A stretch of 44,655 nucleotides of DNA, taken from positions 1 through 44,655 of the forward strand of contig JAESRB010000002.1 of assembly GCA_016764855.1 (NCBI GenBank). The letters run 5' to 3'. Of the stretch, positions 17,590 through 38,381 are shown one piece after another. The stretch's first letter is position 1. Each line of letters opens with the position of its first letter. Position numbers and translations under genes: made by a program. This DNA is from Emcibacter sp. Lineage in GTDB: Bacteria; Pseudomonadota; Alphaproteobacteria; Sphingomonadales; Emcibacteraceae. The notes beneath the pieces were generated by a model that was not told the origin of the DNA, searched no databases, and worked only from the letters and a program-made list of their open reading frames with translations.

Positions 17590-20500
17590 ATGCTCAGATC
17601 AATAATCAGCATTTTTGTTTTTATTTTAAGCAGCCATGCCGCACTGGCCGCTGATACTATTCATCACAAAATGGACATTACGCTGAATCCGGCAAGTCAT
17701 CTATTAACGGCAACGGATACCATAACTATTCCCCCATCTCTGGCCCGCAATGGCATGACCTTACAAATCAACAGCGATCTGATGGTTGAGAAAATCTCTG
17801 GCAAAGTGACTTTTAAAAAAATTGCCGAGGGCAAAAATGCAAAAGACATTGGTATTGACCGGGACAATGACAAAAAAGACACCATCGTTAAAGTTACCCA
17901 TTATAAACTGGATGGTATAACCTCCGGCGATCCGATCACCCTTACCCTCAAACTGTCCGGCGTTATCAATAATCCGGTCATCGAGCTAAACGAAGAATAT
18001 GCCCGTGGTTTTTCCCAGTCACCAGGCCTGATCGAAGAACGCGGTGTCTATCTCGCCGGTGCAACTTACTGGGTACCAACCGTAAAAGACACTTTGATCA
18101 CCTATGACATCACCGTCAAGATGCCAGCGGACTGGCGCTCCGTTAGTCAGGGCGCACGGGTCAAACATGAGACAGGTGATTTTCATGTGGATGGTTGGAA
18201 AGCCGATACACCCACAGAAGAAATCTATCTGATTGCGGCCAAATTCACTGAATATGAAATCCCTGTTGGCAATGTAAAAGCCATGGCCTTCCTGCGCACG
18301 CCCGATGATGTCATGGCCCAAAAATATCTGGAAACCACGGCCCAATATATGGAAATGTACCGTGAGATGCTTGGCCCCTACCCCTATACCAAATTCGCTT
18401 TGGTGGAAAATTTCTGGGAAACAGGCTACGGCATGCCGTCCTTCACTTTACTTGGGTCACAAATCATCCGCTTTCCCTTTATTCTTCACAGCAGTTATCC
18501 CCATGAATTATTACACAACTGGTGGGGCAACGGTGTGTTCATTGATTTCGAAACAGGCAATTGGGCCGAGGGTCTGACCGCCTATATGGCCGACCATCTG
18601 GTGGCGGAACAACGGGGCAAAGGTGCGGATTATCGCCGATCCACCCTGCAACGCTATACCAGCTATGTTGATGATAAAACCGACTTCCCCCTGCGGAAAT
18701 TCAGAAGCCGCCATAATGCGGTGACCGAGGCCGTGGGCTACGGCAAAACCAGCATGATGTGGAATATGCTGCGCGGGCTAGTGGGCGACGAAGACTTCAA
18801 ACGCAGCTTCCAAAGATTTTACCGTAATCATAAATTCGGTGTCGGCACCTTTGATGATATCCGGGTCGCATTTGAAGGGGTCACAGATAAAGACTTAAAA
18901 CCATTTTTTGCCCAATGGGTAGATGACACAGGCGCACCAGAGCTAACTATTACACGCGCCGAACAATCGGGGAAGAAATTAAAAATCTCTCTGAAACAGC
19001 TTCAAAAACATGCCCCCTTTACGATTCAAGTCCCCGTCGCAGTTTATACCAAAGACAAGGTTGAGCGGCATCTGTTGCAAATGAACAAACGGTCGCAGGA
19101 TTTCTCCATCACGATGGAAAATAAAGTAGCGCGCATCGAAATTGACCCGGAATTTGACCTGTTTCGCCGCCTCCATTGGGCGGAAATCCCGCCCTCTCTC
19201 GGCAGTGCCTTTGGTGCAGAAAAGGTCGTTATGATCCTGCCATCCGATGCCACAGACGCTTTGCAGAAACGTTATCTGGAATTAACAACCATCTGGAGCG
19301 GCGGCAATAAAATGACCGTCCTGAAAGACAGCGATATCGAGACATTACCAACGGACGGAGCCATTTGGATTTTGGGTCAAAACAACCGCTTTTATGGTGT
19401 CGTAAAAGATGCCTTGAAAAATTATGATGCCAGTGCGACGGCCAATACGGTTCAATTTGGTAAACAGAAATTAAGCCTGTCCGAGAATTCAACAGTAATA
19501 GCCGTCCGTAATCCCAGCAATCCACAAAGTGTCATTGTAGGTCTGACTGTTCATAATGACGCCGCTGTAAAGGGATTGGCCCGCAAGTTGCCCCATTACG
19601 GTAAATACAGCTATCTGGCCTTCACCAATGAGGCCCCGGATAATAGCGCCAAAGGTCAATGGCCTGCGGTGGGGTCGCCTTTGGTTGCGGTACTTGATAA
19701 ATCCACAATAACCACGGCCCACCTGAAACCTCGTCCTGCACTGGCACAGCTGAAGCCCGTCTTTGATGGCAAGCGCATGATGTCACATGTGGAATATCTG
19801 GCCTCTCCCGAACTGGAAGGCCGCGGCGTTGGCACAAAAGGCCTTGAAAAAGCGGCATCCTATATCACCGACAGCTTTATCGCCGCAGGATTAAAACCTG
19901 CCGGAGAGAATGGCAGTTGGTTCCAGTCTTTTGACATGACCGGGCCAGACGACAAAAAAGTTACCGTTAAAAATATCGTCGGTATTATCCCCGGCAAAAA
20001 TCCGAACATGAACCAACAGTCTGTGGTCCTGTCCGCCCATTATGACCATCTTGGTTATGGCTGGCCCAATGTTCGGGCCGCCTATGCCGGACAAATCCAT
20101 CCCGGTGCCGACGATAATGCATCCGGTATTGCTGTCCTGCTGGAACTGGCGAAATCAATGGCCAAATCTTCTCCGGACCGCACCATTGTCTTTCTTGCTT
20201 CTACAGCAGAAGAATCCGGTCTTCTTGGCGCCCGTCATTATGTGAAAACCATGAAGGACTATCCCGCAATCAAAGCCATCGCCAATGTTAATTTGGACAC
20301 CGTTGGCCGCGCAGGCGAGAAAATCATGATCTTTGGGGGCACATCTGCCACAGAATGGCGGTTTATATTCATGGGAACAACGGCAACCACGGGCATTCAG
20401 ACGGACCTCGTCATGCAAGCCGTGAATGCCAGTGACCATACTGCCTTTATTGAAGCTGGTGTCCCGGCCATTCACATATTCGGCAGCCCCACCACCGATT

Positions 20501-20943
20501 ATCACAGACCCGGTGACAAGGCAGATACCGTAAATATAGCCAGTCTTATGAAAGTCGCGGCCTTGACCAAAGAGGTCGTTGAATATCTGGGCGGACGTGT
20601 CGATCCCCTGACCTCTACCTTAAAACCCGCTGATCCAAATGCGCCTAAAGTTCTGCCTGCTGCAAATAAACGCAGCGGCCGTAAGGTTAGCACCGGTGCC
20701 ATGCCCGACTTTGCTTTTTCCGGCAAAGGCGTCAAGGTATCGCAAGTAGCCCCCGGCAGCGCAGGTGCGAATGCGGGACTGACTGCCGGAGATATTATCA
20801 CCCGCTTTGGGGGGGAGAGCGTCACGAACCTGCGTGATTACACAAAAATCTTGGGCAAATATAATCCCGGTGACAAAGTTGATGTCATCGTTAAACGAGG
20901 CGACAAAAATATCCCTCTGGTTCTGACACTGAAGAAAAGGTGA
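17590..20943 (+). CDS. Secreted M1-M28 metallopeptidase fusion with PDZ domain
   Basis: This 1117-residue protein has a signal peptide ending ALA at residue 20. Residues about 25-540 are an M1-type (aminopeptidase N-like) unit with His305-Glu306-X2-His309 and Glu327 as zinc ligands in HELLHNWWGN and NWAEG. Residues about 740-1000 are an M28 peptidase. All expected metal ligands are visible: His817 and Asp819 (AHYDHLG), Asp841/842 (GADDNASG), Glu874-Glu875, Asp903 and His972 (DYHRPGD). Residues about 1035-1117 form a PDZ domain. It should cleave peptides in the periplasm or outside. It is odd among small-molecule catabolic genes. An operator-like site precedes it, and the NHL gene overlaps or abuts its end. 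Confidence 0.9.
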   Translation: MLRSIISIFVFILSSHAALAADTIHHKMDITLNPASHLLTATDTITIPPSLARNGMTLQINSDLMVEKISGKVTFKKIAEGKNAKDIGIDRDNDKKDTIVKVTHYKLDGITSGDPITLTLKLSGVINNPVIELNEEYARGFSQSPGLIEERGVYLAGATYWVPTVKDTLITYDITVKMPADWRSVSQGARVKHETGDFHVDGWKADTPTEEIYLIAAKFTEYEIPVGNVKAMAFLRTPDDVMAQKYLETTAQYMEMYREMLGPYPYTKFALVENFWETGYGMPSFTLLGSQIIRFPFILHSSYPHELLHNWWGNGVFIDFETGNWAEGLTAYMADHLVAEQRGKGADYRRSTLQRYTSYVDDKTDFPLRKFRSRHNAVTEAVGYGKTSMMWNMLRGLVGDEDFKRSFQRFYRNHKFGVGTFDDIRVAFEGVTDKDLKPFFAQWVDDTGAPELTITRAEQSGKKLKISLKQLQKHAPFTIQVPVAVYTKDKVERHLLQMNKRSQDFSITMENKVARIEIDPEFDLFRRLHWAEIPPSLGSAFGAEKVVMILPSDATDALQKRYLELTTIWSGGNKMTVLKDSDIETLPTDGAIWILGQNNRFYGVVKDALKNYDASATANTVQFGKQKLSLSENSTVIAVRNPSNPQSVIVGLTVHNDAAVKGLARKLPHYGKYSYLAFTNEAPDNSAKGQWPAVGSPLVAVLDKSTITTAHLKPRPALAQLKPVFDGKRMMSHVEYLASPELEGRGVGTKGLEKAASYITDSFIAAGLKPAGENGSWFQSFDMTGPDDKKVTVKNIVGIIPGKNPNMNQQSVVLSAHYDHLGYGWPNVRAAYAGQIHPGADDNASGIAVLLELAKSMAKSSPDRTIVFLASTAEESGLLGARHYVKTMKDYPAIKAIANVNLDTVGRAGEKIMIFGGTSATEWRFIFMGTTATTGIQTDLVMQAVNASDHTAFIEAGVPAIHIFGSPTTDYHRPGDKADTVNIASLMKVAALTKEVVEYLGGRVDPLTSTLKPADPNAPKVLPAANKRSGRKVSTGAMPDFAFSGKGVKVSQVAPGSAGANAGLTAGDIITRFGGESVTNLRDYTKILGKYNPGDKVDVIVKRGDKNIPLVLTLKKR

Positions 20944-22979: not shown

Positions 22980-24191
22980 CTAGAACATATAGCTGCTTTT
23001 TTCCGGTGCGGAATCGATGATTTCATTCCCCGTTTCCAGTCCCAACGCCCACCGACCAATGGGCGTCATACCAATTTCCCATTGTTGACTTTGATGCGCG
23101 GTCAAGGCCTCCATATCTCGGTGGAACCGCTGTACAGGGTTTTTATCACTCAACCCGCTGGCCCCCATCATCTTTACGAGACGCGTGACAGCATCGGAAC
23201 ATAACTTGCCAATAAAGACACAGTCTCGCTTCAGTCGCACCAATTCATCTTTGGGAATTCGCTCCCCCTGCACACCACGGGCATGTAACATCTCATAAAC
23301 GCGGGCATTCAATAGCTTGGCTGCGGAAATTTCTGCGGATGATTCCGCAATCCGGGTCTGTACGGGAATTTGTTCAGCTATTTTCTCCCCAAACATGGCC
23401 CCCACTCTGCTTTTGGTAATCTCCAAATAGGCCTCCATTGCCCCAACTGCCGTTCCCACAATCGGCCCCAAAGGCACCGAAAAGAAATATTCCGGCATAT
23501 AGGCCTGATAAGTATAGCTGTCGTGCGCTTTTGCACCCTCTGCGGTTCCCGTATCAAAGGTGCTGATGGGCATGGCACGATGTTCGGGGATGAAGACCTC
23601 TGTAACTTTGATGTTCATGGAGCCTGTGCCTTTCAAGCCGGACACATACCAATTGTCCACATATTCAAAATCGCTTGCGGGCAAGACAAAAAGCGTCATT
23701 TCATATTCATCGCGGGTTGCGGTTTCGGCCTGCGTTCCGACAATCGCCCATTCTGAGTGCGACAAACCACTGGCAAATGACCATTCTCCGGAGACCAAAT
23801 AGCCACCGTCGACCTTTTTGCTGGAAACATTCCGACCCCCGGCAAAGGCCGTTGCAATAAGGACATCCGGGTTGGCAAAAATCTCTTTCTGAACCTGCAT
23901 TCCAAGACGCGCCGCCATCCATGTATGCGACCCGACGACGCATTGTATCCAAGCCGTAGACGTGCAGCCCCGTGCCAACTCATAAGCAATTTCCGCATGT
24001 GCGCCCCAGTCCATCTCGTACCCCCCGAACATTTTCGGCTGATAATATTTGAGCAGGCCTAGTCTGTGGAGATCGGCCATTGTTTCCTTGGGTAACTGGC
24101 GCAGGCTTTCGGTTTCTGCGGCACGGTCCCTAAGCGTCGGGACGAGACTACGTGCTCTTTCCAGGAGTTCTTCCAATGTCACATCCGTCAT
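22980..24191 (-). CDS. Acyl-CoA-dehydrogenase-fold flavoprotein, possible flavin-dependent monooxygenase
   Basis: This 403-residue protein has the acyl-CoA dehydrogenase fold of the group including HsaA, DszC and p-hydroxyphenylacetate hydroxylase C2. It begins with an N-terminal helical domain (LPKETMADLHRLGLLKYYQP, GGYEMDWGAHAEIAYELARG). The middle beta-domain has VSGEWSFASGLSHSEWAIVG and LKGTGSMNIKV. The C-terminal four-helix domain has MMGASGLSDKNPVQRFHRDM. The monooxygenase reading is preferred over a true acyl-CoA dehydrogenase, but a separate flavin reductase is not seen here. The ATG at 24191 follows GGAGGATGGAA. An operator-like site lies 116 bases upstream. It leads the operon with the MDR reductase. 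Confidence 0.83.
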   Translation of the reverse strand: MTDVTLEELLERARSLVPTLRDRAAETESLRQLPKETMADLHRLGLLKYYQPKMFGGYEMDWGAHAEIAYELARGCTSTAWIQCVVGSHTWMAARLGMQVQKEIFANPDVLIATAFAGGRNVSSKKVDGGYLVSGEWSFASGLSHSEWAIVGTQAETATRDEYEMTLFVLPASDFEYVDNWYVSGLKGTGSMNIKVTEVFIPEHRAMPISTFDTGTAEGAKAHDSYTYQAYMPEYFFSVPLGPIVGTAVGAMEAYLEITKSRVGAMFGEKIAEQIPVQTRIAESSAEISAAKLLNARVYEMLHARGVQGERIPKDELVRLKRDCVFIGKLCSDAVTRLVKMMGASGLSDKNPVQRFHRDMEALTAHQSQQWEIGMTPIGRWALGLETGNEIIDSAPEKSSYMF

Positions 24192-24306
24192 TTCCATCCT
24201 CCGCATAGTCCATAAAATCAATTGGCAGAATATGGCTCCATATGCTGCTCTTCTGGCTTAATATTATAAGGACTATTGGCAATAACATATTAGGAAGATA
24301 AGGACT

Positions 24307-24392: not shown

Positions 24393-25385
24393 CTAAATTT
24401 TGATGATGGTTTTGCCAAAATTTTTACCTGTCATCAGACGTACAAAGGCATCGGGCGCATTTTCTAAACCTTCTGTGACATCTTCCCGGTATTTGATCAA
24501 TCCTTGTTCCACCCACGGCAGAACCTTATTCAGAAATTCCTGTTTCTTGTCAAAATGATCATAGACGACCAAACCCCGGACCGTTGCCCGCGCGCGGATA
24601 ATTGTCGCAGGATTGGGCCCGGCCGGAACCACATCCGTATTATATTGCGCCATGAGTCCACATAGAACCACCCGCGCGCCAAGGGCCAATTGCCCCATAA
24701 CAACCTCCAACGTCTCGCCCCCGACATTGTCGAAATAAACATCAATTCCCTCCGGGCAGTATTTTTCAATTCTCCCCCTAAGGTCATGTTTTTTATAATT
24801 GATACAATGAGAAAAACCGGCCTCTTCAACCAGCCACCGGCATTTTTCGTCGGTTCCGGCAATACCAATCACTTCGCAGCCCAGAATTCGGGCAATTTGC
24901 CCCACCATAGACCCCACTGCACCCGATGCGGCCGAAACCACCAATCTGTCGCCTGCTTTAAGCTCCGCCAGATATAACATGCCAGCATAGGCCGTTAATC
25001 CGGGCATCCCCATTATGCCGAGCGCCAGAGAAACCGGTTCAATACGGTGGTCTACAAGGGTCAATTCCGCAGCTTCGGCCAGTGAATATACCTGCCAACC
25101 GCCCTGATGCATCACCACATCCCCCATTTTAAAATCCGGGTGATCTGACGTTACAATCTCGGAAATTGTCTCCCCACGCATAGTATCTCCCGGATGAATG
25201 GCCCCGGATATATGACGACCACTGATCTGCCCCCGCATATAAGGGTCAAGAGACAGATAAAGGCTACGGCATAAAACCTCCCCTGCTCCGGCCACCGGAA
25301 TCTGTCCATGAAAAACTTCAAAATCCTGTGCAACAGGGGCGTTTTCCGGTCGATTTTTCAAACGTATTTGAATATTCTCACTCAC
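24393..25385 (-). CDS. NADP-dependent oxidoreductase, MDR superfamily (PTGR/CurA-like)
   Basis: This 330-residue enzyme is of the same family as the gene at 21919-22953 but clearly diverged. Motifs are LYLSLDPYMRGQISGRH, the nucleotide motif SAASGAVGSMVGQIAR and VYFDNVGGETLEVV. It would reduce an enone or enoyl double bond with NADPH. The GTG at 25385 is preferred: the protein then begins SENIQIRLKNRP as its relatives do, GGAAAAAAG stands just upstream, and the start overlaps the stop of the FAD oxidase gene by eight bases (GTGAGTGA). An ATG at 25403 or 25406 is possible. It is the last gene of the Hyu operon. Confidence 0.9.
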   Translation of the reverse strand: MSENIQIRLKNRPENAPVAQDFEVFHGQIPVAGAGEVLCRSLYLSLDPYMRGQISGRHISGAIHPGDTMRGETISEIVTSDHPDFKMGDVVMHQGGWQVYSLAEAAELTLVDHRIEPVSLALGIMGMPGLTAYAGMLYLAELKAGDRLVVSAASGAVGSMVGQIARILGCEVIGIAGTDEKCRWLVEEAGFSHCINYKKHDLRGRIEKYCPEGIDVYFDNVGGETLEVVMGQLALGARVVLCGLMAQYNTDVVPAGPNPATIIRARATVRGLVVYDHFDKKQEFLNKVLPWVEQGLIKYREDVTEGLENAPDAFVRLMTGKNFGKTIIKI

Positions 25386-26976
25386 CTTTTTTTCCTTTGT
25401 CATCATCGGGCCACAGGCCAAGGGCTCCTGGATTAAGCCTCAACTGCGGGTCCAGATTTTTCTTGAGACTTTCCACCAATTGATAACTATTATCATGCAA
25501 ACCCTGTTTATATTTATAGGTTTTGCCAATTTGAAAATGAACGGCCCCCTGTGCCAAAAATAGATCAATCAGGCTTTCCCGGATTTTCTGAACCACAGAA
25601 CGCGCCTGATTATTTTCGGGAAAGCCCTTCATCGCCTTCAATACCGATTTTTCAACATGTTGGTGGTGAAATGGCAGCAACGCATCCGGCCAGAAGAACA
25701 CCGGTTCGATCACCACGGCCGATGTCCCGACCGTGGTATAAAGATACCCCGTGCCAATATTATATTCCGCCATATCCTTGGCAAATTTTGTATAGACAGC
25801 CTCGATCGCGCTTTGCAATTTATCTGCCCGCGAATGAGGCACCAAAGCATGTACCGGGGACCAACGTTCGCCCGCAGGACCGATCATATTATTCAATGGT
25901 GTGAAGGGATTGGCGCTAATGACCTTTGGAATTGTATTCTCAATTTCTTCGCCGTTACACTTCTTTGCGATGGCGCGAATATCGGCCATATAGTGTTCTG
26001 CTACGCCGTCATATTTATGTTCTGTTATTATATGGACCGAATAGCGCACCTCATCCATATAGCGCCGCCCGGAAAGCGCCATTTTGGCCCCTTCTTTCAA
26101 GCCCCCCAACAGGGAAGAATTGGCCTTGACCACCCCGGTCAGCGCCTTGACATCCTTGGCCAGACTTTCCCGTTTCATGCGTTGTGATTGCAGATAGGGG
26201 TCAAAACCAAAACATTCACTGGCCAGCCCCTGACGTGCAATCTCTGCCATGGCGGCGAACATATCATTTGACGTTTGAAAATTAAACGATCCAAAGACCT
26301 TATGAGGTGTCTCTGCCATTAGTCTCAGCGTGATGGTGGCCTTAACCGCCAATGCCCCCGCATCAGACGTAAACAACCCGGTCAAATCAGGACCATAATG
26401 ACGGAAAAATACACTGCCGCCCTTCACCGCTCCCGACCCAGTGGTGATGATATCGCCGCCAATGGTTACAAGTTTCATACCGATGACGCTGTCCGCTGCT
26501 GTGCCATAATGCCCCGAACCAAAAAAGATACTATTTTGGCTCAAACTGCCGCCAACCGTGGCGCTTATCCCAGAAAGCGTCCCCCAAAAAGGCGTGCGCA
26601 GGCCCGTATTTTTCAAGGCTTCATATAAATCTACCCACCGACAACCGCATTCTACAGTGACATACATATCCTGTTGATTGATCTCTAATATACGGTTCAT
26701 ACGCGTCGTATCGATGGTCAGGGATTTCTCCACCGTTGGCAAATAACCACTGGTATAGGATACGCCACCACCCCGGGGGAAAAGAGAATATCCCGCCATG
26801 GCCGCTATCTTTACTCCTGCCGAAAGTTCCGTCATATTCCCCGGTCTCATCACACCACAAGTTACATGGGAGGAAGCACGGTAAACATCCTGAGAATAAT
26901 AGATACATTCCGTTTTGTCGGTAATGAAATTTTCCGCCCCTAACAGAGAAATCATTTGGCTGGTCAGTTTCTTCAT
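25378..26976 (-). CDS. FAD-linked oxidase (vanillyl-alcohol oxidase/4-cresol dehydrogenase-like)
   Basis: This 532-residue protein has an N-terminal FAD-binding PCMH-type domain (CGVMRPGNMTELSAGV, LFPRGGGVSYTSGY, GLRTPFWGTLSGISATVGG). It then has a substrate/cap domain and ends in LRLNPGALGLWP. It fits the VAO/4-cresol dehydrogenase class, whose members oxidise para-substituted phenols, D-2-hydroxyacids or similar. Whether FAD is covalently bound cannot be decided. The ATG at 26976 is preferred to one nine codons upstream. It lies 109 bases after HyuB and overlaps the reductase gene by eight bases, suggesting that its product is an unsaturated ketone or acid passed to that reductase (inference). 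Confidence 0.85.
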   Translation of the reverse strand: MKKLTSQMISLLGAENFITDKTECIYYSQDVYRASSHVTCGVMRPGNMTELSAGVKIAAMAGYSLFPRGGGVSYTSGYLPTVEKSLTIDTTRMNRILEINQQDMYVTVECGCRWVDLYEALKNTGLRTPFWGTLSGISATVGGSLSQNSIFFGSGHYGTAADSVIGMKLVTIGGDIITTGSGAVKGGSVFFRHYGPDLTGLFTSDAGALAVKATITLRLMAETPHKVFGSFNFQTSNDMFAAMAEIARQGLASECFGFDPYLQSQRMKRESLAKDVKALTGVVKANSSLLGGLKEGAKMALSGRRYMDEVRYSVHIITEHKYDGVAEHYMADIRAIAKKCNGEEIENTIPKVISANPFTPLNNMIGPAGERWSPVHALVPHSRADKLQSAIEAVYTKFAKDMAEYNIGTGYLYTTVGTSAVVIEPVFFWPDALLPFHHQHVEKSVLKAMKGFPENNQARSVVQKIRESLIDLFLAQGAVHFQIGKTYKYKQGLHDNSYQLVESLKKNLDPQLRLNPGALGLWPDDDKGKKGE

Positions 26977-27085
26977 GCCTTCACACCCTAATTCACAAAA
27001 CACCTTACCATAAGAAACAATCTTCTGTTCAACAATAATAAATCATAAAAACCAGCTAGTTAGAAGACAGACCTTATCCGTTTCC

Positions 27086-28942
27086 TTAATTCCATACCGG
27101 CTGTATGGGCGCGGGAAGCCCGGTTTCCGCAAGACATCTTTCCCTAAGTTCCTCAAGAGAAGGGCCTGAGTTAAATATCTGGCTCGTTTTGATATTTTCC
27201 TGCATTACCGCCCTTAAATCGCGGGTTGCGGCTTCATCAACATCATTCTCAACATCCAGAACCACACCGTAATTCCGGGCACCTTGTGGTGAGACCAGTC
27301 CTTGCCGAACCTCCCGCGCGACCAATTCCGCATCACGGTCCAGCGGGTTACCCCATCCGCCGCCACCCCAAGTATTGTAAATCAGTACATCGCCAATTCG
27401 GACAGAAATATCATCACATTTGGACGGCAGAACCTCTCGTTCCCCGTCTTTGCGTACCAGTGTTTTTGTGGAACGCATTCCCGGATTTCCCCCATGCACA
27501 CCCCAAGGATAAGTAAACCAGCGGTCATCATGAATTGATATGGTCCCGTCCTGTAAAAAATGATAGTGGATCGAGATACCATTACCCCCGCGATTAAGAC
27601 CAGCACCGCCGGAATCCGCGATGGTTTCATAACGCTCTATCCTCAGCGGAAAATAGGCCTCAAGAAATTCATTAGGCACATTGGTAAAACCGGGCCATAG
27701 CGAGTGGCCGTCGGGACCATCGCCAAAGGGCCGTCCCGGAATACCGCCAAAGCCGATCTGGAACAGTTGGAACCATTCCCCCTGACTGTCATAACCAGAA
27801 TACATCAGATGGGGACTGGACGAGAAACCAGCCGCATTCAGGAATTCTGGCTGACGTTGCCCCAACAAAGCCCCCAATACATCAAAGATCCGACCCAATG
27901 CATGGGTCCGGCAACTCAAAGCCGCCGGGAAGCGTGGTTTCAGAAGCGAGCCTTCCGGGATACGCACCTCAACCAGATCGTAAAAGCCATCATTGAACAA
28001 TATCTGAGGATCAAACACCATGATCATATAAATGCCAAAAAACATCTTGAGCATATTTTCGTTAAGATAAAAATTGATCGAGCTTTCCGATTGCGGGTCT
28101 GTCCCCTCCCAATCCAAAATCACCTTGTCGCCTTCCCGCCACATGGTGCATTTTATTTTATAAGGCCCAAAACCACGGCCATCGTCACAGACATAATCCT
28201 CGAAAGAGACCTTTTCTTCCCCCACAGAAGTGGCAATCAACTGCGCCATAGCCCTTCTGTTACGGTCCAGAAGTTTTAATGTTGCAGAAATATACGTATC
28301 AGAACCAAACCGATCGCACATTTCAACCACCCGACGTTCCGCCATACGACAGGCCGCAACAATGGCATTCAAATCCGCCCCGGCCCATTCCGGCATACGA
28401 CATTGATGTAGAACGACCTTAAGCAGGTCCTCCTGCCTAACACCCTTTCTGTAAAGTTTAACGGGCGGAATTCGGATACCTTCCTGAAAAATAGTTATCG
28501 CATTGGTCGGTAATGACCCCGGCACCATACCGCCCACGTCTGTCATATGACCGAACATGGCGCTCCAGCCCACATGCCGCCTCTCTTTAAAAATGGCTAA
28601 TAATACCAACCAATCATTGGCATGGCTGACGGCCCCTTCACATGTATAGGGATCAGACAACCAAAAAATATCCCCTTCTTCAATCGTCCCGTCATACCCG
28701 TTGAGAAATCCCTGAATGAACGAGCCAAACTGCCCGGCTAACATCAATCCGCCCTTATCCGCAATCAAGGGAAAGGCGTCACCCTGCTCTCTAATTCCCG
28801 GTGACATAGCCGTTCGAAAGAGGGTCGCATCCATTTCAAAACGCGCATTCTTCAATGCATTTTCAATGATATCCAATGTAATCGGATCAACATCCACCGT
28901 ATTAAACGCTGTGGTATTTTCCTGAATTATTGTCGCAGCCAT
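27086..28942 (-). CDS. Hydantoinase B/oxoprolinase-type subunit (HyuB)
   Basis: This 618-residue protein belongs to the hydantoinase B/5-oxoprolinase family, the catalytic partner of HyuA. Typical segments are DPITLDIIENALKNARFEMD, MFGHMTDVGG, LDWEGTDPQS and the late YNTWGGGGWGNP. The complex uses ATP to open cyclic amides (5-oxoproline, N-methylhydantoin, caprolactam) or to carboxylate ketones such as acetone or acetophenone. The start at 28942 has AAGGAGGA upstream. It follows HyuA by ten bases, so the two form one unit. The substrate is unknown. Confidence 0.93.
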   Translation of the reverse strand: MAATIIQENTTAFNTVDVDPITLDIIENALKNARFEMDATLFRTAMSPGIREQGDAFPLIADKGGLMLAGQFGSFIQGFLNGYDGTIEEGDIFWLSDPYTCEGAVSHANDWLVLLAIFKERRHVGWSAMFGHMTDVGGMVPGSLPTNAITIFQEGIRIPPVKLYRKGVRQEDLLKVVLHQCRMPEWAGADLNAIVAACRMAERRVVEMCDRFGSDTYISATLKLLDRNRRAMAQLIATSVGEEKVSFEDYVCDDGRGFGPYKIKCTMWREGDKVILDWEGTDPQSESSINFYLNENMLKMFFGIYMIMVFDPQILFNDGFYDLVEVRIPEGSLLKPRFPAALSCRTHALGRIFDVLGALLGQRQPEFLNAAGFSSSPHLMYSGYDSQGEWFQLFQIGFGGIPGRPFGDGPDGHSLWPGFTNVPNEFLEAYFPLRIERYETIADSGGAGLNRGGNGISIHYHFLQDGTISIHDDRWFTYPWGVHGGNPGMRSTKTLVRKDGEREVLPSKCDDISVRIGDVLIYNTWGGGGWGNPLDRDAELVAREVRQGLVSPQGARNYGVVLDVENDVDEAATRDLRAVMQENIKTSQIFNSGPSLEELRERCLAETGLPAPIQPVWN

Positions 28943-28952
28943 GTTGTCCTCC

Positions 28953-31004
28953 TTATGCGCACGGGTTGATGAGAATATTGCCAAAACGGTCCACATCAGC
29001 CACATGACCGCTCAAGATCAAAGTCGTGGAATCCATCTCTGTTATAATGGCAGGTCCCGTGATTTTATCCCCCGCCCTCAATTTTTCACGGTCATACAGT
29101 TTGGCTTGTTTTTCCTCTCCATCCATCCAGACAGGCGTTACTCCCATTTGTGCCTCACGGGGATCGCCATTGCCCCTGACGATTTTGATCGCTTTCACAT
29201 TGGCTCTTTTACCAAGAACCGTAACCCGCAAATTCACCAATTCTATGGGAGCCTCCAAGCGAAAGGTAAACAGCTTTTCATGTTCCGCATGAAAGGCTTC
29301 TGCCAATTGGTCAAGCCCTGTCTTCGCAAAGCCTTCACGTGTGAAGGGCATCACCACCTCGAAACCTTGTCCCTGATAACGGACCCCGGCTTCAAATTGA
29401 ACCTCCTGCTCCAAGACAGGAACCCCCTGCTCAACAAGCTGTCTACTGACATCTCCGGCCATCGTTTCCAGTATTTCCTCGATTTGCTGCCCATCGGCAT
29501 TATCCAATCTGCTGGACAGACTTTGAGCGGCCTCTGCCCGCATACGGGTTGTTGCGTCACCATAAGCGCATAATACTCCCGGCCCCGGCGGGATTATCAC
29601 CGGCCACGACTGGGTAAGCTTGCCAATGGCATTGGCCTGTAACGGTCCGCCACCGCCAAAACCAATCAAGGCAAAGTCACGGGGGTCATAGCCCTGTTGA
29701 ACGGATACGATGCGTAACGCCCCAAACATATTCTCATTCACGATATCAATGATCCCGGCTGCTGCTGCCATCAGGCTGATGTCCAACGCATCGGCAATGG
29801 TCTGTACGGCTTTTCTCGCCGCAGCAACATCAAGCTTCATTTCACCCCCCAGCAAAGAAGCCGGCAAATATCCCAAAACCACATTGGCATCAGTCACAGT
29901 GGGCTTATCCCCGCCGCTGCCATAACAGGCCGGACCCGGTACAGCTCCGGCACTTTCCGGTCCCACCCGCAAAGCCCCGGTTAATTCCGGCACATGGGCA
30001 ATGGAGCCACCACCGGCCCCCACGGTTTTAATATCCAACGAAGACGTGCGCACCGTCAGGTCCCCCACCACCGTATCCCGAGTTACGCGTGCCGTACCAT
30101 TTTCGATCAAAGATACATCCGTGGAGGTACCGCCCATATCCAATGTCAAAAGATTATTATATCCCGCATGCCCCGCAATCCAAAGCGCACCAGAAACCCC
30201 GCCCGCAGGTCCGCTCATCAAGAGGGCAACGGGCAATTCTTCGGATTTTTCCGAGGACATCAATCCGCCATCGGACCGCAACAGATTAATCTGTCCCGTC
30301 ATATTCTGCGCCCGTAATTCATTGCGCAGATTTTGCACATAGCGGGCCACTGTGGGTCGGACCGCTGAATTAGCCACTGTGGTCAAAGCCCGTTCATACT
30401 CCTGTTTCTCCGGCAGGATATCAGACGACAAAGAAACCGGAATATCCGGCATTTCTTCCCTTATAATTTTTCCTACTCTTTGCTCATGTGCATTATTTGC
30501 AAAACTGTTGATCAGGCAGACTGTCACCGCCTCAACCTTTTCTTTTTTCAAAGTTTCAAGCTGTCTCCGCAAATTATCTTCGTCCAGTTCACGGATAATA
30601 TGACCTTGCGCATCAAGCCGCTCCGGGATCTCTATGGTGCATTCCAGCGGAGCCAGCGTTTCCGGTTTCTGCCAGATAATCCAAGAGGCCAGACCACCAG
30701 GAACCAGTGACCTTGCCACTTGCAATATCTGCCGGTAGCCATCGGTAACGACCAACCCAACACGGGCATATTTCCTCTCCAGAACCGCATTAGTCGCCAC
30801 TGTTGTGCCATGCATGAAAAAAGATAAATCAGATGCTGATATCCCCGCCATATCGCAAATCTTTTGCGTCCCCATAAGAACAGCCTGCGAAGGGTCCGCC
30901 GGCGTAGAGGGAACTTTGCTGCGATAAGTTCGCCCCGTATCCTCTTCTATTAATAACAAGTCGGTAAAGGTTCCGCCCACATCTACGCCTAAACGATATT
31001 CCAT
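28953..31004 (-). CDS. Hydantoinase A/oxoprolinase-type subunit (HyuA)
   Basis: This 683-residue protein is an ASKHA-fold ATP-binding subunit. The phosphate-binding loop is at the N-terminus (LGVDVGGTFTDLLLI). A second motif is TLDMGGTSTDVSLIENG, and VGAGGGSIAHV and FGGGGPLQANAIG also match the family. It activates the substrate carbonyl with ATP for the HyuB subunit. The ATG at 31004 follows GGAGG at a normal distance. It lies 24 bases after the HMG-CoA-lyase-like gene and ten bases before HyuB. The family includes N-methylhydantoinase, 5-oxoprolinase and acetone or acetophenone carboxylase, which sequence alone does not separate. Confidence 0.93.
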   Translation of the reverse strand: MEYRLGVDVGGTFTDLLLIEEDTGRTYRSKVPSTPADPSQAVLMGTQKICDMAGISASDLSFFMHGTTVATNAVLERKYARVGLVVTDGYRQILQVARSLVPGGLASWIIWQKPETLAPLECTIEIPERLDAQGHIIRELDEDNLRRQLETLKKEKVEAVTVCLINSFANNAHEQRVGKIIREEMPDIPVSLSSDILPEKQEYERALTTVANSAVRPTVARYVQNLRNELRAQNMTGQINLLRSDGGLMSSEKSEELPVALLMSGPAGGVSGALWIAGHAGYNNLLTLDMGGTSTDVSLIENGTARVTRDTVVGDLTVRTSSLDIKTVGAGGGSIAHVPELTGALRVGPESAGAVPGPACYGSGGDKPTVTDANVVLGYLPASLLGGEMKLDVAAARKAVQTIADALDISLMAAAAGIIDIVNENMFGALRIVSVQQGYDPRDFALIGFGGGGPLQANAIGKLTQSWPVIIPPGPGVLCAYGDATTRMRAEAAQSLSSRLDNADGQQIEEILETMAGDVSRQLVEQGVPVLEQEVQFEAGVRYQGQGFEVVMPFTREGFAKTGLDQLAEAFHAEHEKLFTFRLEAPIELVNLRVTVLGKRANVKAIKIVRGNGDPREAQMGVTPVWMDGEEKQAKLYDREKLRAGDKITGPAIITEMDSTTLILSGHVADVDRFGNILINPCA

Positions 31005-31028
31005 GTTACTGTCCTCCGTCCCTCTAGT

Positions 31029-31931
31029 TTATATCTTTGGTGGAAAAATCCCGGCCTTTGAGACTTGCCCCGGCACGGTCTTTTCCAACAGCCCCTCTAA
31101 CCAATGGGCCGTATCAATTAATTTTTCCAAATTTAGGCCCGTTTTTATGCCCATACGGTCCAGCATATAAACCAGATCTTCTGTCGCGATATTTCCCGTG
31201 GCATTTGGTGCAAACGGACAGCCCCCAATACCGCCGATACTGGCATCCAGAGTTTTAACCCCAGCCTCCACAGCCGCAACCGCATTGGCAAGCCCCGTCC
31301 CCCGGCTATTATGAAAATGACAGCGCAGGGGCATATCCGGCATTTCCCCGGCGACCGCACCGATCAAATCATGAACCTGTGTCGGCACCCCAACCCCGAT
31401 GGTGTCCGCAAAGCCAATTTCCACAGGGTCATATTCTGCAAGCCGCAGAGCAATATCTCTTACTTGATCAACCGCAACCTCGCCCTCAAAGGGACAGCCA
31501 AATGCGGCACCAATCGTCACTTGTGCTTTTATGCCACAAGCACGGGCGTCTTTAGATATCCGCTGCCATTGTTCCAGAGTCTGCTGAATGCTGGCCCCTT
31601 GGTTGCGTTGATTAAATGTTTCAGAAGCAACAATGACAAAACCCACCTCATCCACCTGCAACGCGCGGGCGCGCTCAAAGCCCCGATAATTCAATATCAA
31701 TCCGGTATAGGTTACCTCTGATCTTTTACGAAGTGATTGCAACAACTTATCCGCATCAGCCATTTGGGGAACACGGGCGGGATTGACAAAACTCGTAACC
31801 TCTATCCTGCGCAGCCCTGCCTCAACGGCCTTTTCAATCAAGGCCACTTTATCTTCTGTCGGCACAAATCTCTCTTCACTCTGAAGCCCATCCCTTGGGG
31901 AAACTTCAAGTATCTCAACATTCCCGGCCAT
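31029..31931 (-). CDS. Hydroxymethylglutaryl-CoA lyase family enzyme
   Basis: This 300-residue TIM-barrel enzyme has the family's SPRDGLQSEE near the N-terminus, metal ligands His205 and His207 (CHFHNSRGTG) and catalytic Cys238 in GGIGGCPFAPNATGN. HMG-CoA lyase cleaves 3-hydroxy-3-methylglutaryl-CoA to acetyl-CoA and acetoacetate; related enzymes cleave other 3-hydroxyacyl-CoAs. It heads the Hyu operon and faces a divergent class III CoA-transferase at 32070 that could make its CoA substrate. A role in degrading a branched dicarboxylic acid is therefore more likely here than leucine catabolism (inference). Its ribosome binding site is weak. Confidence 0.92.
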   Translation of the reverse strand: MAGNVEILEVSPRDGLQSEERFVPTEDKVALIEKAVEAGLRRIEVTSFVNPARVPQMADADKLLQSLRKRSEVTYTGLILNYRGFERARALQVDEVGFVIVASETFNQRNQGASIQQTLEQWQRISKDARACGIKAQVTIGAAFGCPFEGEVAVDQVRDIALRLAEYDPVEIGFADTIGVGVPTQVHDLIGAVAGEMPDMPLRCHFHNSRGTGLANAVAAVEAGVKTLDASIGGIGGCPFAPNATGNIATEDLVYMLDRMGIKTGLNLEKLIDTAHWLEGLLEKTVPGQVSKAGIFPPKI

Positions 31932-32069: not shown

Positions 32070-33287
32070 ATGGATACTGATCACGAACACGACATCACCG
32101 GCCCTCTGAAAGGCATACGGGTCATCGAGATGGGTCAATTACTTGCTGGACCATTCTGCGGTCAACTCATGGGTGATTACGGTGCAGAAGTGATTAAGAT
32201 TGAGCCGCCTCATGTGGGTGATCCTATTCGGGAATGGGGACAGGAAAAACCCCACGGACAATCATTATGGTGGCCAATTATCGCCCGAAATAAAAAATCC
32301 ATCACCTTGAATTTAAGAGAGAAGAAAGGTCAGGAAATAGCCCGCAAGCTCATTGCCAAGGCCGATATTGTCATTGAAAATTTTCGGCCCGGAACCATGG
32401 AGAAATGGGGACTGGGTTATGATGAATTGAAGAAAATTAACCCCGGCCTGATCATGGTTCGCGTATCCGGATTTGGTCAGGATGGCCCCTATTCCAGTCG
32501 GCCCGGTTATGGCTCTATAGGGGAAGCCATGGGCGGTATGCGTTATGTGGTCGGCGACCCTTCAACGCCGCCAAGCCGCATGGGCATTTCCATCGGGGAT
32601 CAATTGGCCGCCACCTTTGCCTGTCTTGGGGCGCTTGCTGCGCTTCATTACCGCGACCAAACCGGCGAAGGTCAGATGATCGACAGTGCCATTTACGAAG
32701 CCGTGCTTGCCATGATGGAATCTTTAATCAGTGAATATGTGGAAGGCGGCTATATCCGCGAACGGTCTGGTGCTATCCTGCCCAATGTGGCCCCGTCCAA
32801 TGTCTATCCAACCAAAGACGGTATTTTCGTTCTGATCGCCGCCAATCAGGATACGGTATTTAAAAGACTAGCCGCCGCCATGGGACAGCCGGAACTGGCC
32901 GAAGACGACCGTTATAAAAGCCATACTTCCCGCGGGAAAAACCAAAAGGAACTGGACGACTTAATTGCCGATTGGAGCCACACATTAAATGCAGATGAAC
33001 TAATGTCCATATTGGATGAGTATGCTATTCCCCAAGGTAAGATATATCGCGCACCGGATATGCTGTCCGATGCTCATTTCAAGGCACGGGAAGCGATTAT
33101 CAAAGTCGCCCACCCCCAATTCAAAAACCTTAAAATGCAGAATGTCTTCCCAAAATTCTCTAAAACTCCGGGGAAAGTCCGCTGGGCTGGCCCTACTTTA
33201 GGCCAACATAATGAAGAAATTTACAAAGGCCTTTTACAATTTAATGACATAGAGGTCAGTGACCTGACCAAACAGGATATCATATAA
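32070..33287 (+). CDS. Class III (CaiB/BaiF) CoA-transferase
   Basis: This 405-residue protein begins with GPLKGIRVIEMGQLLAGPFC and has YGAEVIKIEPP, ENFRPGTMEKWGLG and VRVSGFGQDGPYSSRPGY. The aspartate that forms the acyl-anhydride intermediate is present in SIGDQLAATFACLGALAAL. It transfers CoA from a donor acyl-CoA to a carboxylic acid. It is divergent from the HMG-CoA-lyase gene across 138 bases, which suggests that the two act in sequence: activation, then cleavage. AAGGGAAG precedes the ATG. Two more class III CoA-transferases lie in the window. Confidence 0.93.
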   Translation: MDTDHEHDITGPLKGIRVIEMGQLLAGPFCGQLMGDYGAEVIKIEPPHVGDPIREWGQEKPHGQSLWWPIIARNKKSITLNLREKKGQEIARKLIAKADIVIENFRPGTMEKWGLGYDELKKINPGLIMVRVSGFGQDGPYSSRPGYGSIGEAMGGMRYVVGDPSTPPSRMGISIGDQLAATFACLGALAALHYRDQTGEGQMIDSAIYEAVLAMMESLISEYVEGGYIRERSGAILPNVAPSNVYPTKDGIFVLIAANQDTVFKRLAAAMGQPELAEDDRYKSHTSRGKNQKELDDLIADWSHTLNADELMSILDEYAIPQGKIYRAPDMLSDAHFKAREAIIKVAHPQFKNLKMQNVFPKFSKTPGKVRWAGPTLGQHNEEIYKGLLQFNDIEVSDLTKQDII

Positions 33288-33368: not shown

Positions 33369-34841
33369 CTAAATCGGGCGTTTTAAATATTGACCATTGG
33401 GACTGCCCACAATATTCCCATTGTCGTAAATCAGCCTGCCGCGCAGATAAGTCTGCTTGACCGTTGCTGTCAACGCCTGGCCTTCAAACGGTGTGTATCC
33501 TTGGGTTGAGGGGGAGTTTTTCGCGCTGACTACAAAACCCTCTGTCGGGTCAACCAATACAATATCCGCATCAAATCCGGGAGCAATATCCCCCTTTTTT
33601 GAAAGCCCATAACGAACCGCCGGATTTCGACAGACCAATTCCGCCATATGATTATAGGACATGCCACGTTTTCCCCCTTCACTGATCAAACCGCTCAACA
33701 GATATTCCGTACCGCCAAAGCCGGACTTGGCCAGGAATATCTGATCAGGCTGCTGATTATCGGTTTTCATTTCTTCTTTGCAACAGGCATGGTCCGATAC
33801 AATCCAGTCTACTTTACGGTCCAGCACTGCTTGCCATAAGGCCTCCACATCTTCTCGAGGACGAATGGGCGGATTGACTTTAGCATGACAGCCACATGGG
33901 GAATCCACATCTAATAATAAATGACCGATTGTTACCTCTGTTCGAAAATTTATATGGGGAAAGGCCAATGACATGCGGGCCGCTGAATCCAGCGCCTTTC
34001 GAGAAGATAAATGCAACAGATTGATATTCACACAGTCCGTCTCATGGGCAAGGTATGAGGCAATGGCGATGGCCAACCCCTCCGAATGGGGCGGGCGGGA
34101 TTCATGATAGGCCCGAAGCCCCGTATGCACGCCCTCCTCTTCCACTATTTTCGTATAGGCCGACATGATTTCAGCTGTCTCACAATGAAGACTACAGGAA
34201 ATAATGTCTTTTTTATCCGGATTTTCTTCCATGGCTTTTTTGATACCGCGCATGACGAATTCGAAATGCGCGATATCATATTTCTCCCCCGGTGGTGTCA
34301 TCAGAAAATCGCTCTGATCACTGGACAAACCATGAAGCCCATGAGAGCCATAAAACATGAAAATCTTGAATGACGTCACCCCATAGTTGGCCACAAGGTC
34401 CGGTATCTCCGCAATATGTTCTTTCATCATCGGGGCCAGATGATAACCATAATCCACATAGAAATTCCCATGGGAAAGCGCAAGAACTTCCGGGAAGAAA
34501 TCACGGTAAGCCCCGCCCTTATTCAGATAATATTGTCCAGTCCTCATATAATTCAGACTGGATGTCACCCCACCCATGGCAGCCGCGCGACTTTCCGTAC
34601 GCGCATCCTGATCAAGGGGGTTGTAGATTCCCGTATGCATATGGGCGTCCACCAATCCGGGGAAAGCCAATTTATTCTCCGCATCAACCACCTGCCCCGC
34701 TTCTGCTATGGGTAATTCCGGGGCAAGGACAGCGATCTTTCCGTCTTTGATCCCAATATCAAGAAGGTCAACCGTGTCCATTCCCGGTCGAACAACCCGC
34801 GCATTACGGATGATCAGGTCATAGGTTCGTCTTTCCGTCAT
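33369..34841 (-). CDS. Dihydropyrimidinase/hydantoinase/allantoinase-like amidohydrolase
   Basis: This 490-residue cyclic amidohydrolase has all expected binuclear metal ligands: His67 and His69 (VDAHMHTG), Lys159 as the likely carboxylated lysine (TSFKIFM), His219 (LHCET), His277 (LHLSS) and Asp350 (SDHACC). The start has MTERRTYDLIIRNARVV, and the C-terminus rebuilds the small beta domain. It should hydrolyse a ring amide or imide such as a hydantoin, dihydropyrimidine or allantoin-like compound. GGAGGG lies eight bases before the ATG. It is divergent from the VOC-nitrilase operon, sharing a gap with an ATGAC-N4-GTCAT repeat, and it ends in a terminator. The exact substrate is unknown. Confidence 0.9.
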   Translation of the reverse strand: MTERRTYDLIIRNARVVRPGMDTVDLLDIGIKDGKIAVLAPELPIAEAGQVVDAENKLAFPGLVDAHMHTGIYNPLDQDARTESRAAAMGGVTSSLNYMRTGQYYLNKGGAYRDFFPEVLALSHGNFYVDYGYHLAPMMKEHIAEIPDLVANYGVTSFKIFMFYGSHGLHGLSSDQSDFLMTPPGEKYDIAHFEFVMRGIKKAMEENPDKKDIISCSLHCETAEIMSAYTKIVEEEGVHTGLRAYHESRPPHSEGLAIAIASYLAHETDCVNINLLHLSSRKALDSAARMSLAFPHINFRTEVTIGHLLLDVDSPCGCHAKVNPPIRPREDVEALWQAVLDRKVDWIVSDHACCKEEMKTDNQQPDQIFLAKSGFGGTEYLLSGLISEGGKRGMSYNHMAELVCRNPAVRYGLSKKGDIAPGFDADIVLVDPTEGFVVSAKNSPSTQGYTPFEGQALTATVKQTYLRGRLIYDNGNIVGSPNGQYLKRPI

Positions 34842-35918: not shown

Positions 35919-36965
35919 ATGGAAAATGAAGCTAAACTGCTCGGCCCTACTTATTACGCCATTGCGCTGCAAACCTCCATTGATACGGTCAACAACTGCA
36001 ACAGCCGCGAAGACGCCCGCCTGCTGATAAATAAGACGATCCAGCGTCTGGCATTGGAAATACAGTCCAGCAAGAAATTTGTCGGGCCTGATACCCGACT
36101 GGTGGTTCTGCCGGAATATTTCCTGACTGCCTATCCTATGAATGAAACGATTGCCGGATGGGCCGAGAAGGCCTGCCTTGATATGGATGGGCCGGAATAT
36201 GAAGCTCTGGGCCGCATTGCGCAGGATAATGATATCTATCTATCCGGCAATGCTTATGAAAAAGATCCAAATTTTCCGAGCCTTTATTTCCAGACCAGCT
36301 TTATCCTTAATCCTTCCGGCAATGTAATTTTACGCTACCGACGGCTGAATTCCATGTTTGCCCCGACCCCTCATGATGTCTGGGATAAATATCTTGATGT
36401 TTACGGTCTGGACGGCGTTTTTCCCGTGGCCCATACCGATATTGGTAATCTGGCCTGTATCGCATCCGAAGAAATCCTTTATCCTGAAATCGCCCGCAGT
36501 CTTGCCCTGCGCGGGGCTGAAATATTCCTTCATTCATCTGGCGAAATTGCCTGTACGGCAGACAGCCCGAAACATATCGCCCGCCGCGCCCGCGCCATCG
36601 AAAATATGGCTTATGTCATCTCATCGAATTGTAGCGCCATCCGAGGCCATGACATGCCAGAAAATGCCACAGGCGGCCGATCCGCCATCATTGATTACCG
36701 GGGTATGGTTCTTCAGGAATCCGGCTGGGGCGACACGATGACCGCCAATGCCTCCCTTGATATAAACGCCCTAAGACAACATCGCAAACGGCCGGGCATG
36801 AGCAATTACCTTGCTCGACAACGTCTGGAACTATTCGCCGATACCTATGGAAAATCCGGTAGCCACCCCGCCAATAGCCTGCTGGACAAAGGCGGCAAAC
36901 ATATTATTCCAGACCGAAGCCATTTCATGGCCCGCATGTTGGACGCGATAAAAAAACTATCCTGA
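35919..36965 (+). CDS. Nitrilase-superfamily carbon-nitrogen hydrolase
   Basis: This 348-residue protein retains Glu66 (LPEYFLT) and Cys180 (GNLACIASEEILYPEIAR) of the nitrilase triad. The position of the usual catalytic lysine (normally YRK) reads Arg142 in LRYRRLNS. From similar sequences I remember, this Arg may be a subfamily trait, but I could not check. It should hydrolyse an amide, carbamoyl or nitrile group if active. It shares clear sequence around YGLDGVFPV and TDIGNLA with the protein at 2690-3721, which instead has the Lys but lacks the Cys. AAGGAGGA precedes the ATG. Convergent with the FNR-like gene, with three bases between stops. Confidence 0.87.
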   Translation: MENEAKLLGPTYYAIALQTSIDTVNNCNSREDARLLINKTIQRLALEIQSSKKFVGPDTRLVVLPEYFLTAYPMNETIAGWAEKACLDMDGPEYEALGRIAQDNDIYLSGNAYEKDPNFPSLYFQTSFILNPSGNVILRYRRLNSMFAPTPHDVWDKYLDVYGLDGVFPVAHTDIGNLACIASEEILYPEIARSLALRGAEIFLHSSGEIACTADSPKHIARRARAIENMAYVISSNCSAIRGHDMPENATGGRSAIIDYRGMVLQESGWGDTMTANASLDINALRQHRKRPGMSNYLARQRLELFADTYGKSGSHPANSLLDKGGKHIIPDRSHFMARMLDAIKKLS

Positions 36966-38364: not shown

Positions 38365-38381
38365 TGCCCGCCCTGCCAATT

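Follow-up and report, generated by a model that had tools for sequence, protein, structure and literature searches.

The stretch of DNA analyzed here, 44,655 nucleotides long and hereafter called the window, is contig JAESRB010000002.1 (C279 in our numbering) of the Emcibacter sp. assembly GCA_016764855.1. The assembly comprises 3.1 Mb at 78% completeness, and its best named relatives in the named genome collection are Emcibacter metagenome-assembled genomes. The window carries a gene set centered on HyuA and HyuB, the two subunits of an ATP-dependent amidohydrolase, accompanied by a 3-hydroxy-3-methylglutaryl-CoA (HMG-CoA) lyase-family enzyme (HMGL1), a class III CoA-transferase (CaiB1) and an isochorismatase-type amidase. 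This module is real, conserved and, as far as we have searched, undescribed, and it joins known kinds of enzyme in a new combination.

The HyuAB locus and its conserved partners

Five minus-strand genes run from position 31931 to 24393. All score above their Pfam cut-offs, with the domains HMGL-like, Hydantoinase_A, Hydantoinase_B, FAD_binding_4 and ADH_N_2/ADH_zinc_N. With CaiB1 and the amidase, the genes are as follows.

31029–31931, minus strand: HMGL1, HMG-CoA-lyase-family C–C lyase (PF00682 and NF004283, above cut-off)
28953–31004, minus strand: HyuA, ATP-binding subunit of the ATP-dependent amidohydrolase (Pfam, solved relatives, phosphate motifs)
27086–28942, minus strand: HyuB, metal-binding subunit (Pfam, D-H-D-H metal tetrad)
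25378–26976, minus strand: VAO, putative VAO/PCMH-superfamily flavoprotein, a lineage-level add-on (FAD_binding_4)
24393–25385, minus strand: MDR2, NADPH-dependent enone reductase-like protein of the curcumin reductase/PTGR type (NF058644, below cut-off)
32070–33287, plus strand: CaiB1, class III CoA-transferase, divergent from HMGL1 (PF02515, CoA_transf_3)
37729–38379, minus strand: isochorismatase-type amidase (PF00857), with an uncertain start that overlaps a Crp open reading frame (ORF)

Mechanical ORF calls start too early for three of the five genes, and the starts were re-read from the junction sequences. HMGL1 and HyuA are separated by 24 bases, HyuB starts at ATG 28942 behind an AGGAGG and 10 bases from HyuA, VAO starts at ATG 26976, 109 bases from HyuB, and MDR2 starts at GTG 25385 and overlaps VAO by 8 bases. 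An earlier interpretation of this DNA, made by a model from the letters alone (the sequence-only reading), had given the spacings as 24, 10, 109 and -8, which match exactly once the starts are read in this way. The amidase gene lies 4.4 kb beyond the CoA-transferase, outside the stretch which that reading covered.

Orthologues of HyuB were sampled as the 80 best matches in the named genome collection, with ORFs called around each. Of these loci, 56 have at least 6.5 kb of left flank and at least 4 kb of right flank and could be assessed; their lineages are not independent. HMGL and CaiB1 both lie no more than 6 kb from HyuB in 52 of the 56 (47 by the ORF script and a further 5 by tblastn), the loci without the full pair being L120, where HMGL is absent, L145, L164 and L180. 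The isochorismatase is within the same distance in at least 36 of the 56 and is a core partner of HyuAB in the relatives, and a TonB receptor and a GntR-family regulator accompany HyuB in 45 and 42 loci, respectively. As controls, we used 20 loci of relatives with other HyuAB pairs (27–40% identity), together with 5 such loci of the window's own genome; HMGL, CaiB, isochorismatase, VAO and the LeuC paralogue described below lie beside none of them. The linkage, present in 52 of 56 orthologue loci but in none of the 25 paralogue loci, is not due to chance, and HMGL-HyuA-HyuB with CaiB is a real and old unit. Gene order and strand vary, such that the isochorismatase and CaiB1 are either divergent from HMGL or part of a single row, with HMGL inverted in two loci. 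Between-locus distances of the five proteins are correlated (r 0.64–0.92, n = 40 loci), although shared descent would give this too. That HMGL, HyuAB and the divergent CoA-transferase act in one pathway, as the sequence-only reading proposed, is supported by the neighborhood survey it called for, since the linkage survives rearrangement and the catalytic residues are kept.

Two other gene families were seen in the sample of 80. A gene of the Asp/Glu/hydantoin-racemase family is located next to HyuAB or close to the TonB receptor and the regulator in eight loci (L132, L138, L155, L170, L174, L181, L186 and L137), and SnoaL-like genes occur in 17.

Family placement of the enzymes

The best solved relatives of HyuA are N-methylhydantoinase (477 bits) and then 6yra (376 bits), which was taken from its subunit lengths to be the caprolactamase CapAB of Pseudomonas jessenii. 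For HyuAB as a whole, similarity decreases in the order N-methylhydantoinase, caprolactamase, acetophenone carboxylase (Apc), acetone carboxylase (Acx). The phosphate motifs of HyuA are retained throughout (P1 in 73 of 73 rows with letters, 2 of 75 being gapped; P2 and PGP in 75 of 75 each), as is the HyuB metal tetrad D76/H128/D131/H153 (81 of 81, numbering of the long mechanical ORF), a D-H-D-H arrangement taken from PMC8453981. According to section 7 of PMC5214803, a ketone carboxylase requires a gamma subunit gene and frequently others as well. No gamma subunit or AcxC-like gene was recognized beside HyuAB in the window or in the relatives viewed, annotated plasmids included, and the acx/apc gene order is not seen in the window or the annotated relatives, HyuAB being two genes. 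The acetophenone carboxylase models NF042975 and NF042976 give 302.6 and 113.9 bits against equivalog cut-offs of 1500 and 1500, and the caprolactamase models NF050156 and NF050157 give 533.9 and 220.5 bits against 1000 and 1000. On the published criteria (PMC5214803, section 7), HyuAB is placed in the hydrolase branch; as judged from sequence, its two genes, the absent gamma subunit and the intact metal and ATP sites fit amidohydrolases and not ketone carboxylases.

This placement bears on the carboxylation step of the sequence-only reading. In the manner of acetone and acetophenone carboxylases, HyuAB would carboxylate a ketone with ATP, after which the CoA-transferase would activate the keto- or hydroxy-acid and HMGL would cleave it. 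HyuAB does belong to the ketone-carboxylase superfamily, and a CoA-transferase and a lyase would suit a carboxylated product, but the two-gene HyuAB lacks a gamma subunit, N-methylhydantoinase and caprolactamase are matched ahead of the carboxylases, and the amidase would be idle despite its frequency near HyuB and its position next to the haloarchaeal HyuAB. With no gamma subunit beside HyuAB, we rejected carboxylation, and consider it very unlikely. The same reading had raised the opposite case of a plain 5-oxoprolinase without ties to its neighbors. This appears unlikely because the genome has a separate 1211-residue frame of the fused 5-oxoprolinase kind, on contig C287, and because HyuAB has fixed catabolic partners.

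The nearest solved relative of the amidase is N-carbamoylsarcosine amidohydrolase (26st, 165 bits), and 3ot4 and 3uao are also matched, the latter of which we take to be the maleamate amidase NicF. The triad D37/K125/C158, present in 53 of 53 sequences, assigns it to the N-carbamoylsarcosine/maleamate amidase group. An Arg that presumably binds the substrate carboxylate in N-carbamoylsarcosine amidohydrolase and the 3ot4 and 3uao enzymes is kept in 52 of the 53.

HMGL1 scores 330.3 bits against the NCBIfam subfamily model NF004283 (cut-off 246). The catalytic Arg, Asp, His, His, Cys and Asn of HMG-CoA lyase, located by what we take to be the human numbering, are kept in 64–65 of 65 HMGL1 sequences. 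In a tree that carries a long-branch warning, HMGL1 forms a clade of its own (100/99) on a long stem, apart from the leucine-pathway lyase (LiuE), for which a gene with the usual neighbors was recognized by sequence reading on contig C113 (L256). LiuE is defined by its clade and by an operon with isovaleryl-CoA dehydrogenase and methylcrotonyl-CoA carboxylase, a combination that HMGL1 does not show; with a separate clade and a LiuE-type gene elsewhere in the genome, HMGL1 as a reused leucine-pathway enzyme was rejected. CaiB1 matches CoA_transf_3 with 440 bits, and Asp177, at what we take to be the position of the catalytic Asp of class III CoA-transferases, is present in 66 of 66 sequences. 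Its nearest models are succinate-glutarate CoA-transferase (NF052585, 281.6 bits, equivalog cut-off 750) and mesaconate CoA-transferase, both below cut-off. Together with the specific linkage, the conserved catalytic residues support activation by CoA and subsequent cleavage of an ester of the 3-hydroxyacyl-CoA type, a sequence of steps already suggested for this locus.

If CaiB1 acted like human SUGCT and HMGL1 were a true HMG-CoA lyase, the acid would be 3-hydroxy-3-methylglutarate, and the products acetoacetate and acetyl-CoA. Succinate-glutarate transferase is indeed the best model for CaiB1, SUGCT structures were matched well, and HMGL1 keeps the lyase residues. However, the leucine-pathway lyase is already present in the genome, HMGL1 belongs to the separate long-stem clade, and the isocitrate-lyase-family replacements found in other lineages (see below) do not fit HMG, which makes this acid rather improbable.

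Lyase exchange and the proposed pathway

Relatives of HyuB at 47–70% identity are found on plasmids. Twenty records were listed (H1–H20), of which 7 were not opened and 13 were viewed together with a more distant one (H21); H1 and H21 have no usable annotation, which leaves 12 annotated records. An isochorismatase-type gene accompanies HyuAB in 10 of the 12 (in one case behind the CoA-transferase). A CoA-transferase with a hydroxymethylglutaryl-CoA lyase is present in three (Novosphingobium capsulatum, Acidiphilium multivorum and Geobacillus), a CoA-transferase with a LeuA/citramalate-synthase-like protein in two, both haloarchaea, and an isocitrate lyase/phosphoenolpyruvate (PEP) mutase-family protein in four, all haloarchaea, while the Rubrobacter record has the CoA-transferase with neither lyase type. 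By sequence comparison, the CoA-transferases of Geobacillus, Acidiphilium and Rubrobacter are of the CaiB1 kind (57–66% identical). One plasmid annotation bears a name from N-methylhydantoin/creatinine breakdown; a hydantoinase is not mentioned in the available part of the plasmid owners' paper, PMC10653915. The shortest haloarchaeal form (L265, L269–L272, L274) consists of HyuA, HyuB, the isochorismatase and a lyase, or has the CoA-transferase and the LeuA-like protein, and in Halorientalis and Natronomonas an acetamidase/formamidase gene lies near the HyuAB set.

A second sample covered 14 HyuB places from other alphaproteobacterial families, with partners counted within 6 kb. An isocitrate-lyase-family gene is present in five, the HMGL1 plus CaiB1 form in one, and an isochorismatase (37%) with VAO in another. 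The exchange is also seen in Novosphingobium sp. MW5 (L164). The isocitrate-lyase-family proteins keep the motif K[KR]CGH (5 of 5 in each of two sets), which we take to be a lyase motif. Judged by these sequences, CaiB plus HMGL and the isocitrate-lyase/PEP-mutase-family lyase are two interchangeable solutions, and the latter is not limited to archaea. Both lyase types are compatible with an acid that has a 2-hydroxy-dicarboxylate core of the malate/citramalate type, the strongest hint as to the chemistry.

Of 24 relatives searched, the query's own genome included, 19 have a LeuC-like paralogue that is 57–83% identical to the copy in L112, to which other full-length LeuC copies are at most 48% identical. 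In many relatives it is part of the same island, for example in the row DUF1838-LeuC2-LeuD2-HMGL2-CaiB3. The Robiginitomaculum locus L115 has LeuC2 and LeuD2 directly after HyuAB and the reductase, and in Geobacillus and Acidiphilium LeuC and LeuD are within 10 kb of HyuAB. The last 19 bases of the window, 44637–44655, are identical to the beginning of contig C23 (L209) read as its reverse complement, in the expected orientation, and C23 carries on the island with HMGL2, LeuD2, LeuC2 and DUF1838; in relatives, CaiB3 adjoins HMGL2-LeuD2-LeuC2-DUF1838. DUF1838 (e.g., L112:15878-16789), a family for which we know of no function, recurs directly before LeuC2-LeuD2 in many island loci but is not seen in L212–L216. 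Because most core loci outside Geobacillus, Acidiphilium and the island groups show no LeuCD hydratase nearby, we regard it as accessory. This hydratase, the isochorismatase and the isocitrate-lyase-family exchange had been overlooked in the sequence-only reading, which is supported as regards the joint HMGL/HyuAB/CoA-transferase pathway and not as regards carboxylation.

On balance, we see about an even chance that HMGL1-HyuA-HyuB, CaiB1 and the isochorismatase break down a small cyclic amide as one catabolic module, the likeliest substrate being a cyclic imide, perhaps with an alkyl substituent. In the pathway as inferred, including its step order, ring type, acid and CoA donor, HyuAB would hydrolyze the ring of a cyclic imide or lactam with ATP to give an acid amide, from which the isochorismatase would release ammonia by hydrolysis. 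An unsaturated acid would be hydrated by a LeuCD-type enzyme. CaiB1 would then form the CoA ester of a citramalate-type hydroxy-dicarboxylate, by analogy with succinyl-CoA as donor, and HMGL1 would cut a C–C bond to yield an acyl-CoA, in the simplest case acetyl-CoA, and a 2-oxo acid (pyruvate). VAO and the enone reductase, added in the window's lineage, probably turn a larger precursor into the ring accepted by HyuAB. An imide accounts for the ring opener, the second amidase and the malate-type lyase together because both its C–N bonds are acyl bonds.

Several observations weigh against this assignment. The closest solved relatives of HyuA and the amidase are named from creatinine/N-methylhydantoin breakdown, which suggests a hydantoin rather than an imide, and HyuA, HyuB, CaiB1 and the amidase all fall below every NCBIfam equivalog cut-off. 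HMGL and CaiB are both absent in L145, L164 and L180. Among the 14 alphaproteobacterial HyuB places, four have no partner at all within 6 kb (one of them on a short contig) and three have only weak isochorismatase matches (30–35%), one also with a 38% CaiB match. Two VAO-bearing plasmids (see below) are without isochorismatase, CaiB and HMGL beside HyuAB. Furthermore, most core loci, haloarchaeal ones included, have no hydratase nearby, so that the substrate itself would have to supply the hydroxyl group.

A hydantoin would be processed differently, with HyuAB opening a substituted ring, the isochorismatase removing the carbamoyl group, and CaiB and HMGL acting on the remaining carbon skeleton. 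This agrees with N-methylhydantoinase and N-carbamoylsarcosine amidohydrolase as the best solved relatives, with the single plasmid annotation of that name and with the racemase-family genes in 8 of the 80 loci. The route is nevertheless unlikely, in that it yields an amino acid, which neither HMGL-type nor isocitrate-lyase-family enzymes are known to cleave, and that no transaminase or sarcosine oxidase was recognized among the recurrent neighbor clusters. A hydantoin thus fits the nearest solved relatives, yet leaves the lyase unexplained.

A lactam from auxin, dioxindole-3-acetate, was also weighed as the substrate of HyuAB; CaiB would make the CoA ester, and HMGL would release acetyl-CoA and isatinate, a chemistry that would suit the lyase. 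According to PMC5214803, a HyuAB-type gamma-lactamase acts in anaerobic indoleacetate breakdown. However, no anthranilate or catechol genes were recognized near the core, the amidase is left without a role, the module also occurs in haloarchaea, and the aerobic iad genes are of other kinds. No paper joining hydantoinase and aerobic auxin genes was found in the open-access literature. On the last two grounds the auxin link was rejected, and we hold it to be extremely unlikely.

The flavoprotein set, comparison with known systems and implications

Of the genes that the sequence-only reading had placed in the pathway, the VAO oxidase and the enone reductase do not belong to its core, since VAO is within 6 kb of HyuB in 4 and MDR2 in 5 of the 56 orthologue loci (ORF script). 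They are a lineage-level add-on, though VAO recurs near HyuAB. VAO (FAD_binding_4, 105.5 bits) belongs to a second set with CN_hydrolase, a TRAP transporter, a glyoxalase-fold protein and a reductase, often near but not inside the HyuAB set. A structural model of VAO based on seven sequences (pLDDT 66.9) matches vanillyl-alcohol dehydrogenase, PCMH and D-lactate dehydrogenase at 16–18% identity and a TM score of about 0.65, which is generic, and MDR2 scores 387.7 bits against NF058644 (cut-off 440). In sister Emcibacter loci, three TRAP-transporter genes lie between HyuB and VAO and a flavin reductase stands near MDR2; the TRAP genes were not found in the window, where the HyuB–VAO interval is 26977–27085, nor was the flavin reductase. 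VAO is also beside HyuAB in Roseateles, and on the Sphingomonad plasmids pJE1 and pTomTYG65b a flavoprotein, VAO and an MDR directly precede HyuAB in an operon-like row, although the MDR there is just 25–31% identical to the window's reductases.

VAO and the enone reductase could be mere neighbors, that is, part of two independent catabolic units fused only in Emcibacter-like genomes, which would be compatible with any of the readings above. The scarcity of VAO close to HyuB and its association elsewhere with CN_hydrolase and the TRAP transporter speak for this. On the other side stand the plasmid rows with MDR and HyuAB, and the finding that 16 of 20 tabulated relatives have VAO no more than 45 kb from HyuB. 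That cut was chosen after seeing the data and the genomes are related, so the small p value obtained overstates the case. We consider mere proximity possible but doubtful.

Further genes of the window are listed below.

33369–34841, minus strand: cyclic amidohydrolase of the allantoinase/dihydropyrimidinase type
35919–36965, plus strand: CN_hydrolase amidase (PF00795)
43527–44654, minus strand: CaiB3, CoA-transferase truncated by the contig end
1171–2742: aldehyde dehydrogenase
22980–24221: flavin monooxygenase-like gene

The cyclic amidohydrolase stays beside CaiB1 in the sister Emcibacter loci L110 and L114, and the CN_hydrolase amidase adjoins the VAO gene in many relatives. The flavin monooxygenase-like gene and other island genes were considered as a source of the ring. 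Three different class III CoA-transferases are present in the window (32070–33287, 39677–40879 and 43527–44654), each with its own conserved neighbors in relatives. An MFS transporter gene (16325–17490) is apparently split by a frameshift near 16882–16939, both frames matching one 454-residue homologue of L093, and 17590–20943 encodes a large fusion in which M1-like and M28 peptidase regions are combined with a PDZ domain; an NHL-repeat protein is encoded next.

No description of an HMGL-HyuAB-CaiB-isochorismatase module was found in the open-access literature, but similarities to several known systems are noted. Like HyuAB, the caprolactamase CapAB is a two-subunit ATP-dependent ring amidohydrolase with the same phosphate motifs and D-H-D-H tetrad; HyuAB reaches only 534 and 220 bits against cut-offs of 1000, and the partners here are a CoA-transferase, HMGL and an isochorismatase. 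N-methylhydantoinase and N-carbamoylsarcosine amidohydrolase, from creatinine breakdown, likewise couple an ATP-dependent ring opener to an isochorismatase-fold amidase. Unlike in that pathway, no creatinine deiminase or sarcosine-oxidizing genes were recognized beside the module, which has a CoA-transferase and a C–C lyase instead. The acetophenone and acetone carboxylases share the superfamily and the ATP and metal sites with HyuAB, but they have an extra gamma subunit and longer subunits, and similarity is clearly lower. In nicotinate fermentation, dimethylmaleate hydratase has an aconitase fold, and dimethylmalate lyase, of the isocitrate-lyase/PEP-mutase family, then acts on the alkylmalate. 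Likened by family alone, this system resembles the module in its types of hydratase and lyase, but it is anaerobic and has no HyuAB. (R)-Citramalyl-CoA lyase is taken to be HMG-CoA-lyase-like. Succinyl-CoA:citramalate CoA-transferase and citramalyl-CoA lyase (KEGG K18313/K18314; table entries in PMC8307300) present the same pairing of CoA-transferase and CoA-ester lyase, on citramalate; unlike the module, this pair has no ring-opening hydrolase. PMC12633357, PMC10374108 and PMC12290011 also belong to the literature base.

Many genomes contain HyuAB pairs, and the names given to them (hydantoinase, oxoprolinase, carboxylase) are for the most part guesswork. Here, a fixed partner set is seen again and again, in Alphaproteobacteria, Geobacillus, Rubrobacter and also haloarchaea, and two unrelated lyases replace each other in it. 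This narrows the possible chemistry to the opening of a ring, a deamidation and the splitting of a malate-type acid, and the four-gene haloarchaeal version is small enough for direct testing. A more far-reaching idea, which we rate as a long shot, is that the module is a widespread route for alkyl-substituted maleimides and succinimides from the breakdown of chlorophyll, heme and bile pigments. HyuAB and the amidase would turn the imide into an alkylmaleate, LeuCD-like enzymes would hydrate it where needed, and CaiB plus HMGL or the isocitrate-lyase-family enzyme would cut the alkylmalate. The idea arises from the imide-to-alkylmalate logic and from the fact that several carriers come from aquatic, hot-spring and salt-lake settings, the data containing no direct pointer to tetrapyrroles. 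If true, the module would supply a final stage that has been missing from tetrapyrrole recycling.

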